Below, in pieces: positions 437-32,840 of a stretch of DNA of 32,840 nt. The notes below the pieces were generated by a model that was not told where the DNA came from, did no database searches, and saw only the letters and a program-made list of their open reading frames with translations. The position numbers and the translations under genes are program-made. The stretch is taken from the NCBI GenBank assembly GCA_035934015.1, contig DASYYH010000018.1:1-32840 (forward strand). Direction: 5' to 3'. Each line of letters begins with the position of its first letter. Position 1 is the stretch's first letter. This DNA is from Candidatus Acidiferrales bacterium. GTDB lineage: Bacteria; Acidobacteriota; Terriglobia; Acidiferrales; UBA7541.

Positions 437-461
437 AAAAAACCCGGCGTCAAGCGCCGGG
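437..461 (-). terminator. Intrinsic terminator upstream of the 23S leader
   Basis: Read on the minus strand this is a perfect 7-bp GC stem, CCCGGCG / CGCCGGG, with loop CTTGA, followed directly by six T. That is a textbook Rho-independent terminator. It lies between the promoter at 614-641 and the 23S gene, so it either ends a separate small RNA or acts as an attenuator for 23S transcription. Confidence 0.75.
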
Positions 462-607
462 CGATTCCTTCCACAGTATCCTCGGAAGGATTTGCTCGAA
501 GCTCGACAGCTTTCTATCCGGTGCTCGTAGTCAACCTCACCTCTTTGATGAAAGGGAGATTACCGGCCCGTCGGGTCCTCTGGGCGCCCCGCCCAGTCTT
601 CCGACAT
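437..607 (-). ncRNA. Candidate structured small RNA or rRNA leader
   Basis: This is a transcript of about 170 nt predicted between a consensus-like promoter (614-641) and an intrinsic terminator (437-461), with no plausible reading frame. By eye it folds strongly. GTCGG (605-601) pairs with CCGAC (574-570) around a perfect CTGGGCG-GGG-CGCCCAG hairpin (596-580). CCGGT (566-562) pairs with ACCGG (522-518) around an inner AATCTC/GAGGTT helix. CCTTCC/GGAAGG forms a further hairpin before the terminator. The length resembles 6S RNA, but the fold looks multi-hairpin rather than rod-like and I do not recognise a known family. It may be a stand-alone sRNA or the 5' leader of the 23S transcript. Confidence 0.42.
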
Positions 608-613
608 CAGATA

Positions 614-641
614 AGTATACGGATTTTCCCCCTTGCGTCAA
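614..641 (-). promoter_or_regulatory. Sigma70-type promoter directed toward the 23S gene
   Basis: The minus strand has a -35 box TTGACG (641-636), a 16-bp spacer and a -10 box TATACT (619-614). Transcription would start near 607 and enter the structured RNA and then the 23S leader. No better promoter is visible between the terminator at 437 and the 23S gene, so this may drive the rRNA by readthrough. Confidence 0.65.
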
Positions 642-29178: not shown

Positions 29179-31688
29179 GGCAGGCAGTGCTGCGCTTCGG
29201 CAGCCGTCCTGCGATGAAAGAGCGCGTAATCGCCGCCGACGCCCACATGTTCCTCGATTCACTGTGGCGGGATTTGCATTACAGCCTGCGTGGCCTCCGC
29301 AAGAACCTCGGATTCACGGCCATCGCCGTCCTCACACTGGCGCTCGGCATCGGCGCCAACACTGCAGTATTTAGTGTGTTCGACCTTGATTTGCTTCGCC
29401 CGCTTCCCTACGCGAATGCGAATCGGCTTGTCTTTTTTGGGATGCTCATGCCCTCCTTCGACTCGCGCCCGTTCCTCTTCACGTCGTCCTATCTGCAACT
29501 TCGCACCACCCATACGCCCTTCGAATCCATAACTTCATGGCGTCCCGGCATCGCGGGATGCGATTTGACGGAGACGCAACCACTGCGTCTCGCTTGCGCA
29601 CGCGCGGAATCCACGTTTCTCCCCACCTTCGGAATCAGCCCAATTTTAGGCCGCAGCTTCAATGCCGAAGAGGACGGCCCCAACGCCCCAGCAGTGTGCC
29701 TGATTTCCTATGCGTTGTGGCAGAGCCGTTTCGGTGGCCGCGCTACAGCTCTTGGTCAGATGCTCTCGCTTGATGGCCAGCCAACCCGCATTATCGGTAT
29801 CTTGCCGCCGAATTTCGAGTGGCCCACGCTCGAACCGGTGGACGTCATCTTGCCCGAGGCTATTACCGCCGCCGAGCGATCAAACCCGATGGCCGGGGCG
29901 GTGCGCGCTTACGCAAGGTTAAAGCCGGGCGTGAACATGAAAGAAGCCCGCGCCCAGCTCGAACCCGCGCTTGAGAGTTGGCGGCAAGCTTCACCGCCGA
30001 TGTTCCGCAAGGAAATAGGACTGGGCTTAATCTCCGTGCGCGAAGACCAGGTCGGGTCGATACGGTTGGCACTATTGGTTCTCTTTGGAGCTTCGCTCGC
30101 CTTACTCCTCTTGGCCGTCGCCAACGTGACAAACCTTCTTTCCGCGCGCGCCTCAGCGCGAGAACGAGAACTCGCAGTGCGAACGGCTCTCGGCGCTAGC
30201 CGGAGAAACTTGATCGCTCTGCAACTTACGGAAAGCACCCTCCTGGGTCTTTCCGGCGGCGTCGGCGGCGCGGGACTGGCTTTCGTGCTGCTGCGTCTGT
30301 TTGTGGCGCTTGCACCGGCTGGAATTCCGCATGTCGCGCAGGTGCGTCTCGACGCGCCAGTGGTGCTCTTTGTTTTGATAGCCTCAGTGCTCGCAGGTTT
30401 AGCATGCGGACTGGCACCGGCGCTGACTCCACCACCTGTGCGCACGCTCCTCGCCGGCCCTTCGCTCGCCGCACCGCGGGCTCGCCTCGGAGCAATGCTG
30501 GTCGTCGGGCAAGTGGCCGTGTCTTTTGCGCTGGTCGCCGGGGCAGGATTGCTCCTCGAAACCTTGCGAAACATTGACAACGTGCCGCTGGGAATGAAAA
30601 CCAGCCACATTGTTACGGCCGAAGTCACGCTGGGTCGAGCCTACGGCCAATCCGGGAGGGCAGACGAATTCTTCAATCAGCTGGAGTCGGCGTTGCGAGA
30701 TTTGCCCGGAGTGACGGGTGTGGGCGTTAGCGACTCGCTCCCGCCCACCGGAGGAGGGCGCGCGCGCAGTTTCTTCGATATCCGTGTCGAAGGCCAGCCT
30801 CCTTCTCCCAAAGGCGAAGGCGGGCTAGTCGGCTGGAGTACGGTTACGCCCGGTTATTTCCAGACGCTTGGCATTCCTATTCTCGAGGGGCGCGAGTTCC
30901 TGCCAAGCGATCAAGATCCGCATTCCGATGTGATCGTAGTGACCAAGAAACTGGCTGCTCGCCTTTTCGCTGGACGGAACGCAATCGGCCAGCATCTTCA
31001 GCTCGCACCTCCTTCGGGATCTTGGTACACGGTCATCGGCGTTGTCGGCGACGTAAACCACCTTGACCAATCCGGCAGGATTGGACGCAGCGATCCCGGC
31101 TACTATCTCCCGCGACCGCGCTTGCCAGACCCCGTCACGGCACCGGACGATCGCCATGCCTTCTTTCTTGTACGCAGCTCCCTGGAACCAGTCGCTGTGG
31201 AGCGGCTGGTTCGCGAAAAAATTTCAACGCTTGATCCTACGCTGTTGGCGAGCATCTCGACCCTGGATGCACGCGTGAACCTTCTGCGTGTGCAGCCCCG
31301 GTTCAACGCTGCCCTCATTACTCTGTTTGCCGCGTTGGGTTTTCTCCTTTCCGCACTCGGGCTTTACGGCGTCCTCTCATTTCTTGTTATGGTCCGCACG
31401 AAAGAAATTGGAATTCGTACCGCGCTCGGTGCCGCGCCCCAAGCCGTGCTAAAGATGATCGTCTGGCGCGGACTGCGCCTCGTTCTGCTGGGCCTTGCGG
31501 CTGGTGTCGTGCTTGAGCTCGCTGGTGTTCACCTGTTGCAAGGGCTGCTTTACGGCGTCACTCCAGGCAACGCAGAAATCGCTGTTGCGTCAGTCTTGCT
31601 CCTGTTAATCGCGGGCTCAGCCGCCTGCTACATTCCCGCCCGCCGCGCCATGCGCGTCGATCCCATGGTTGCCCTGAGGCACGAGTAA
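29040..31688 (+). CDS. ADOP-type MacB/FtsX permease
   Basis: From ATG 29040 the product is 882 aa; an upstream in-frame ATG (28971) lies in the remnant of the previous copy. The N-terminal ~70 residues (SILRRITNLFHRSKLDEEID, SHIEMRTADNIAAGMSPKEA) form the permease-prefix domain of this family. Then come TM1 (FTAIAVLTLALGIGANTAVF), a MacB-like periplasmic core (to ~residue 330), a block of TM helices with ARASARERELAVRTALGASR (FtsX), a second periplasmic core, and a final FtsX block with RTKEIGIRTALGAAPQAVLK. This is a duplicated MacB-PCD/FtsX pair, the acidobacterial duplicated orphan permease. No ATPase gene is adjacent. Transport of peptides, lipids or drugs is possible but not established. 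Confidence 0.92.
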   Translation: MSILRRITNLFHRSKLDEEIDAELRSHIEMRTADNIAAGMSPKEARRQAVLRFGSRPAMKERVIAADAHMFLDSLWRDLHYSLRGLRKNLGFTAIAVLTLALGIGANTAVFSVFDLDLLRPLPYANANRLVFFGMLMPSFDSRPFLFTSSYLQLRTTHTPFESITSWRPGIAGCDLTETQPLRLACARAESTFLPTFGISPILGRSFNAEEDGPNAPAVCLISYALWQSRFGGRATALGQMLSLDGQPTRIIGILPPNFEWPTLEPVDVILPEAITAAERSNPMAGAVRAYARLKPGVNMKEARAQLEPALESWRQASPPMFRKEIGLGLISVREDQVGSIRLALLVLFGASLALLLLAVANVTNLLSARASARERELAVRTALGASRRNLIALQLTESTLLGLSGGVGGAGLAFVLLRLFVALAPAGIPHVAQVRLDAPVVLFVLIASVLAGLACGLAPALTPPPVRTLLAGPSLAAPRARLGAMLVVGQVAVSFALVAGAGLLLETLRNIDNVPLGMKTSHIVTAEVTLGRAYGQSGRADEFFNQLESALRDLPGVTGVGVSDSLPPTGGGRARSFFDIRVEGQPPSPKGEGGLVGWSTVTPGYFQTLGIPILEGREFLPSDQDPHSDVIVVTKKLAARLFAGRNAIGQHLQLAPPSGSWYTVIGVVGDVNHLDQSGRIGRSDPGYYLPRPRLPDPVTAPDDRHAFFLVRSSLEPVAVERLVREKISTLDPTLLASISTLDARVNLLRVQPRFNAALITLFAALGFLLSALGLYGVLSFLVMVRTKEIGIRTALGAAPQAVLKMIVWRGLRLVLLGLAAGVVLELAGVHLLQGLLYGVTPGNAEIAVASVLLLLIAGSAACYIPARRAMRVDPMVALRHE

Positions 31689-31793
31689 TGAGCCTTCGCA
31701 TACACGTTCGCAGCGGTACGCATCATAATCAATCTTCCTATTCGCGCCGCCGGTCTGCTGCGCTAGCAGCACAAGAAAAAAAGGGCGCGCGGG

Positions 31794-31896: not shown

Positions 31897-31947
31897 GCCC
31901 GCCGCGCCATGCGCGTCGATCCCATGGTCGCGCTGAGGTACGAGTGA
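31897..31947 (+). pseudogene. C-terminal remnant of a second ADOP permease
   Basis: The frame reads ARRAMRVDPMVALRYE and a stop, again the conserved end of an ADOP permease without any upstream body. The stop is followed by GC and an ATG, as at 29035-29042. Confidence 0.75.

Positions 31948-32381: not shown

Positions 32382-32840
<459 letters not shown>

Follow-up and report, generated by a model that had tools for sequence, protein, structure and literature searches.

A conserved leader RNA with competing terminator and antiterminator pairings precedes the unlinked 23S rRNA gene in an order of Acidobacteria and is likely to act as a transcription attenuator

The window analyzed here, that is, the whole stretch of 32,840 nucleotides, comprises all of contig C18 of a Candidatus Acidiferrales genome that is assembled in 28 contigs and is 98.6% complete. 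The 5' end of a 23S rRNA gene, cut by the contig end, lies at the left end on the minus strand (129-1, with the 5' end placed at 129 by Rfam), and the start of a 16S rRNA gene lies at the right end on the plus strand, from position 32383; the two genes are divergent and 32 kb apart. Read along the minus strand, the region in front of the 23S gene consists of a promoter (641-614), an RNA of ~170 nt, an intrinsic terminator (462-437), a hairpin (403-386), a boxA-like antitermination site GTTCTTTGACAA (358-347), and the 23S gene at 129. The promoter is of the sigma-70 type, with the -35 hexamer TTGACG (641-636) and the -10 hexamer TATACT (619-614) separated by a 16-nt spacer and matching 10 of 12 consensus letters; it was identified by a pattern scan and is supported by the relatives. 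The terminator has an 8-bp stem (462-442) with the loop CUUGA, followed by a run of six T (U6 in the RNA), and the hairpin between it and boxA (GCUCCGC/GCGGAG), recognized by eye, occurs in many relatives. An earlier note, made from sequence alone, had described a TTGACG/TATACT promoter, a structured RNA of ~170 nt, a terminator, boxA and the 23S gene in this order, and this layout held.

The RNA (608-437) folds to a computed energy of -72.4 kcal/mol (z -2.74; 1 of 200 shuffled sequences was equally stable). From its 5' end it contains a helix P0 (605-570, GUCGG/CCGAC with an inner hairpin), which was obtained by folding the 5' domain alone and varies in sequence among relatives; a sensor-like domain (566-518) with helix P1 (566-562 with 522-518), the hairpin P2 (561-533) and the conserved strand UACGARCAC (529-521); the 5' strand of a putative antiterminator, GUCGAGC-U-UCG-A-GC (507-494); and the hairpin P4 (490-466), located between the two antiterminator strands. 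The segment that follows, GCCCGGCGCUUGAC (462-449), is shared by two structures, as it comprises the ascending arm, the loop and the first 3' base of the terminator and is at the same time the 3' strand of the antiterminator. The earlier note had also claimed several perfect helices, which held only in part: the terminator stem and the hairpin at 490-466 are perfect, the 5' domain is not. Pattern scans yielded one promoter versus a mean of 0.8 in shuffled DNA and three terminators versus a mean of 1.6, and the promoter and terminator of the leader are consequently credible because the relatives keep both and not because of these counts.

No Rfam family reaches its gathering score between positions 130 and 641, in agreement with the earlier statement that no family was recognized. 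The best match below threshold in this region is anti-hemB (RF02837), with 25.1 bits against a cut-off of 49.5; it is a weak match to the leader's terminator and the hairpin preceding it, scores 19-30 bits across the window and the loci of 8 of 8 relatives, and was rejected as a generic match to a GC-rich terminator. Among the riboswitch and T-box classes of Rfam 15, none matched even loosely (E up to 10 for the window and up to 1 for the loci of eight relatives). 6S RNA (RF00013) resembles the leader RNA in length, stability and possession of its own promoter, but it does not match at the leader, and the genome's own 6S gene is found on contig C20 with 64 bits. A leader peptide was likewise discarded; the few relatives compared do not preserve the window's ATG frame, a comparison made by eye and without statistics. 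The Rfam search for 23S rRNA in the window's own genome found nothing despite the 129 nt of 23S present there, hence this search misses cut genes.

A DNA search of 101 genomes gave matches at E up to 1 in 87, many of them due to chance, with the strong ones spread across the same family. Of 30 loci taken from this search, 27 hold the start of a 23S gene, and all 27 have a promoter and a terminator of the same kind, with the 23S gene 140-616 nt after the terminator. An RNA model built from 26 of these 27 loci detected one strong copy per genome in 56 of the 89 genomes of the family, plus six weak matches on the opposite strand at the same places. When the model was applied to a sample of 399 genomes of the class, 59 matched, namely the same 56, the two genomes G061 and G063, each from a different sister family of the order, and G312; we judge the match in G312 spurious, as it has no terminator of the leader kind and lies 4.8 Mb from 23S. 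The weak opposite-strand matches, which fall in a near-palindromic region, were discarded (six in the family search and two in the class search). In a sample of 396 genomes of the phylum the model matched only the window's own genome and none of the other 395. For the large genome searches the filters were set more strictly, at the cost of weak matches.

The 23S gene lies 140-705 nt downstream in 54 of the 58 accepted loci; the remaining four contigs stop 124-276 nt past the terminator. Conversely, 54 of the 95 genomes of the order yielded a 23S 5' end (G061, G063 and 52 family members). The RNA accompanies it in 51 of these 52 family genomes, and in the one without the RNA, G060, no more than 257 nt of contig precede the 23S gene. 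The promoter is present at the equivalent place in 54 of the 58 loci when the pattern is widened for weak hexamers, and comparable sites are recognizable by eye in the remaining four. Most relatives are represented by draft assemblies of many contigs, which often end in rRNA genes, and we call the 23S genes unlinked on the basis of their own promoters, the absence of a 16S gene just upstream, and the location on separate contigs. Two genomes contain second 23S copies that follow a 16S end and two tRNA-like stretches (G013, contig C44, locus L155; G005, contig C51, locus L156) and are 87-88% identical to the window's 23S start; these 16S-tRNA-23S contigs are likely to be contaminants. A pattern scan of named genomes found 18 loci; 17 carry the label Acidobacteria or Terriglobia ("gp2" in four cases), and the last is labelled Betaproteobacteria. 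This last record (L046, apparently corresponding to contig C54 of the family member G120) bears an acidobacterial leader and is probably a mislabelled bin.

The evidence for an alternative structure comes from the 14-nt strand at 507-494. A counterpart of this strand, in many cases GUCGAGC.UCG.GC, is located upstream of the terminator in each of the 58 loci, and 10 to 12 of its 12 pairing positions are complementary to the ascending arm, the loop and the first 3' base of the terminator; in the window's genome all 12 pairs with 462-449 can form. The pairs in G018, G038, G061 and G063 were re-set by eye. For the 19 pairs of the antiterminator and P4 in 26 aligned sequences, 94.7% are paired and 39 cells are changed on both sides, versus 10.1 in shuffles, while slid registers give at most 11; within P4, both sides are changed at six of the seven pairs. 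Taken by themselves, the 12 antiterminator pairs, assessed over the 58 loci (35 distinct strand pairs), are paired in 94.5% of cells versus 91.4% in shuffles and include 20 double-changed cells versus 7.3, a number reached by none of 2000 shuffles. The double changes fall on five pairs: pair 1 (G-C to A-U in g3 and g9), pair 2 (U-A to C-G in f2 and to A-U in g3), pair 3 (C-G to U-A in f2), pair 4 (G-C to A-U in g1, f2 and f3), and pair 12 (C-G to U-A in f2, g2, g5, g7, g9 and g12, that is, in six genera or families). The correlation at pair 12 favours the antiterminator because the terminator is indifferent to this base change, which yields G-U or A-U there. Unpaired cells are present at pairs 1, 2, 8 and 12, and the counts refer to cells rather than independent events. 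The terminator stem is nearly invariant among the relatives and therefore cannot be tested by covariation.

Computed energies place the terminator and antiterminator states within 5 kcal/mol of each other in 45 of the 58 loci, and the antiterminator state is favoured in 45 of the 58; in G063 the terminator is preferred by 11.4 kcal/mol. The mean computed probability of the terminator is 0.21, and scrambling of the 14-nt strand alone raises it to 0.87. If the RNA is truncated before the 3' arm of the terminator, the lowest-energy fold contains all 11 remaining antiterminator pairs in 54 of 58 loci, 10 of 11 in G116 and 9 of 11 in G063, and only 2 of 11 in the window's own genome and none of 11 in G001. 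In the RNAalifold consensus of the 26 sequences, the terminator and P4 are present and the antiterminator is absent. Thus an attenuator criterion that asks for a conserved alternative pairing excluding the terminator is met, the preference of the RNAalifold consensus for the terminator notwithstanding, and the criterion of an intrinsic terminator between promoter and gene is met as well, in its sequence form only.

The 5' domain begins with the variable first hairpin, after which P1 encloses the P2 hairpin and the strand UACGARCAC; the most conserved letters in the 26 sequences include UGAGGU, ACGA and GGNUA. RNAalifold did not return P1 and P2; these helices vary, and no single consensus fold was obtained. 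Judged by the criterion of an aptamer-like domain, the conserved letters are present but a single consensus fold has not been shown, and the 5'-domain helices are less firmly established than the antiterminator. In G061 the domain is reduced to one short helix around CUACGGAUA. When the 5' domain is fixed in its own best fold, the balance between the two states changes to -2.1 from -2.4 kcal/mol, with the antiterminator favoured in 38 rather than 45 of the 58 loci; because fixing the domain hardly moves the balance, the way in which it might influence the switch remains unclear. According to a count by eye, the strand around GARCACCGG is paired with the terminator's 3' arm in the computed antiterminated state of 16 of the 58 genomes, and this predicted pairing hints at one possible route by which the 5' domain could communicate with the switch. 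A search for mimicry of rRNA by sequence gave no better matches for the leader than for shuffles, when compared with the 23S of one relative and the 16S of another. Part of the 5' domain may resemble NusA-binding boxC RNA.

Transcription of the 23S gene could in principle start anew after the terminator. We find no conserved promoter there: over 54 leaders the mean best score between the terminator and 23S is 8.3 versus 7.9 in shuffled sequences. For the upstream promoter, which the pattern found in 51 of the 54 leaders, the average is 9.9. The best site in 40 of 54 leaders reuses the TTGACA inside boxA, which is a perfect -35 element, with -10 regions that differ among leaders. A weak second promoter is nevertheless not excluded, since boxA holds this perfect -35 and at least 9 of 12 letters match in 16 of the 54 leaders, with 10 in G125. 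In G061 and G063, boxA directly follows the U run of the terminator, which leaves no space for an intervening promoter. A further element, GCUCRAG, occurs after the terminator in 49 of 54 23S leaders (282-276 on the minus strand of the window) and resembles the terminator loop and the antiterminator strand.

A 16S 5' end was found in 56 of the 89 family genomes. The RNA and a 16S gene were both found in 38 family genomes, as judged by eye, and only in the window's genome do they share a contig. Among the 30 16S leaders examined out of the 56, none has a terminator between the promoter and boxA, although in four of the 30 the promoter pattern was not found. Eight of the 30 (L177, L180, L182, L192, L194, L195, L197 and L198) contain a GC-rich hairpin with a T run after boxA, 24-43 nt before the mature 16S, and in another 16S leader, L191, a hairpin with a T run lies upstream of its promoter. 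The hexamer GUUCGU, the complement of the conserved ACGAAC, is present in 14 of the 30 16S leaders, within a recurring AGUUCGY element. Pairing of the 16S leader with the RNA was tried as a candidate and rejected: in 18 genomes the longest complement to the 5'-domain strand averages 7.1, compared with 7.5 for shuffles and 7.0 for the leaders of other genomes (the wrong segment was picked for G123 in this test), and duplex prediction for 16S leader and RNA gave long, implausible duplexes and was uninformative.

Outside the order, 11 23S leaders could be compared, after G061 and G063 had been set aside from the 13 genomes with a match among 40. Seven belong to 16S-tRNA-23S arrangements, and the 1500 nt preceding the other four, all from family f6, contain neither a 16S end nor a tRNA; no terminator of the leader type was found in the last 700 nt before 23S in any of the 11. 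The idea that the element is a mere result of unlinking was discarded on this basis: the four f6 genomes without an upstream 16S also lack such a terminator, and the element is thus not a general consequence of separate genes.

We conclude that the RNA is likely to be the 5' leader of an unlinked 23S gene and to act as a transcription attenuator. The comparative evidence for this reading is strong and consists of conservation, location in front of 23S, an antiterminator pairing that excludes the terminator, and the lack of a conserved alternative promoter; read-through and regulation are inferred, without expression or in vitro data. The earlier note had offered an attenuator of an orphan 23S gene as one option and an independent small RNA as the other. 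Comparison supports the former by the position of the element, the covarying antiterminator, the lack of a conserved second promoter and the location of 16S elsewhere, with no experiment on read-through or regulation, and makes the latter the less likely of the two; the checks that the note had proposed (conservation, covariation and Rfam) were run, and none refuted its reading. In the mechanism that we propose, RNA polymerase would start near position 607 and first produce the 5' domain (P0, P1/P2 and UACGARCAC), then the GUCGAGC.UCG.GC strand, P4 and the terminator. Pairing of the GUCGAGC strand with the ascending arm and loop of the terminator would block the latter, and the polymerase would continue through boxA into 23S; if the strand were held otherwise, the terminator would form and an RNA of ~170 nt would be released. 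That the choice is regulated, and set by a factor or metabolite bound by the 5' domain, is an inference for which we have identified no ligand or protein and have no binding data. We can only speculate that the signal is a measure of ribosome supply, such as a free large-subunit protein or a nucleotide signal, matching 23S to the separately transcribed 16S. A bolder reading, which in our judgment has equal chances of being right or wrong, is that a ligand- or protein-sensing RNA switch acts directly on an rRNA gene and turns down the orphan 23S through regulated termination within the leader, independently of 16S, and that subunit balance is attained by RNA sensing and not by co-transcription.

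Several other explanations can be considered. The RNA might be an independent small RNA gene that merely precedes 23S, with 23S transcribed from another promoter after the terminator. A promoter and a terminator do frame a stable RNA, and the TTGACA in boxA could serve as a -35 element, with 10 of 12 letters matched there in G125; however, 23S comes next in all 54 loci whose contigs extend that far, no conserved -10 is seen after boxA, G061 and G063 leave no room for a promoter between terminator and boxA, and there is no evident reason for such a gene to keep a strand that competes with its own terminator. We regard this explanation as unlikely, while the terminated product of ~170 nt may still have a function of its own. 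The GUCGAGC strand might instead form a pseudoknot with the loop of an intact terminator, stabilizing or tuning the 3' end rather than acting as an antiterminator. This would be compatible with the alignment consensus, which favours an intact terminator, and with the covariation of pairs 2-6 of the 12, which fall in the loop and would covary under either model. The conserved extension pairs, however, lie in the ascending arm of the terminator; at pair 12, six genera or families show covariation even though the terminator itself is indifferent to the G/A change; and the terminator's 3' arm takes part in pair 1, which is changed in two genera. The pseudoknot thus appears very improbable.

An explanation that cannot be dismissed as readily is a fixed, unregulated device, in which the terminator would lower 23S output or discard faulty early complexes and let a constant fraction of polymerases read through. 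It is not likely but remains possible, as no ligand is known and fixing the 5' domain shifts the computed balance little. Against it, the conservation of UACGARCAC and UGAGGU in the 26 sequences seems to exceed what a constant leak needs, and weakening the promoter would, we infer, be an easier way to lower output.

An attenuator in front of 23S would have parallels in several known systems without being identical to any of them. Attenuators of ribosomal protein operons have been published, and the Bacillus subtilis rplJL leader, controlled by L10(L12)4 (PMC4538822), is similar in that control is exerted by transcription attenuation in a leader and serves ribosome supply; it differs in that rplJL is a protein operon, whereas the controlled product here would be the 23S rRNA itself, with no known regulator. 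Metabolite riboswitches and T-box leaders have mutually exclusive terminators and antiterminators after a conserved 5' domain, as proposed here for the 23S leader, and usually precede protein genes; the 23S leader differs from them in having no family match and no known ligand. Pausing and attenuation occur in the E. coli rrnB leader, which is comparable as early elongation control in an rRNA transcript. BoxA-dependent antitermination of rRNA is well known (PMC10250234), and boxA is also present in the 23S leader, but the boxA machinery alone cannot explain passage through the terminator because boxA lies after it. The 23S leader differs from both the rrnB leader and boxA antitermination by its conserved alternative RNA structure. 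A paper on 104 candidate RNAs lists Acido-1 and Acido-Lenti-1 from Acidobacteria, and Solibacter-1, and does not contain "23S" in its main text (PMC2864571). In the open-licence literature that we searched, we recognized no description of such a switch on an rRNA gene.

Most bacteria co-transcribe 16S and 23S (PMC10250234), and to our knowledge there is no settled account of how the two are balanced when they are encoded apart. A conserved attenuator restricted to 23S would be a concrete and testable mechanism for subunit balance. The stand-alone 23S gene in one order of soil Acidobacteria appears to start with a conserved RNA switch, and the leader defines a candidate RNA family of 58 loci without a match in Rfam. 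As a minor observation elsewhere in the window, the end of a permease-like gene (ARRAMRVDPMVALR..) seems by eye to be repeated ~260 bases further on (31638-31689 and 31899-31947, plus strand), perhaps as a partial duplication.
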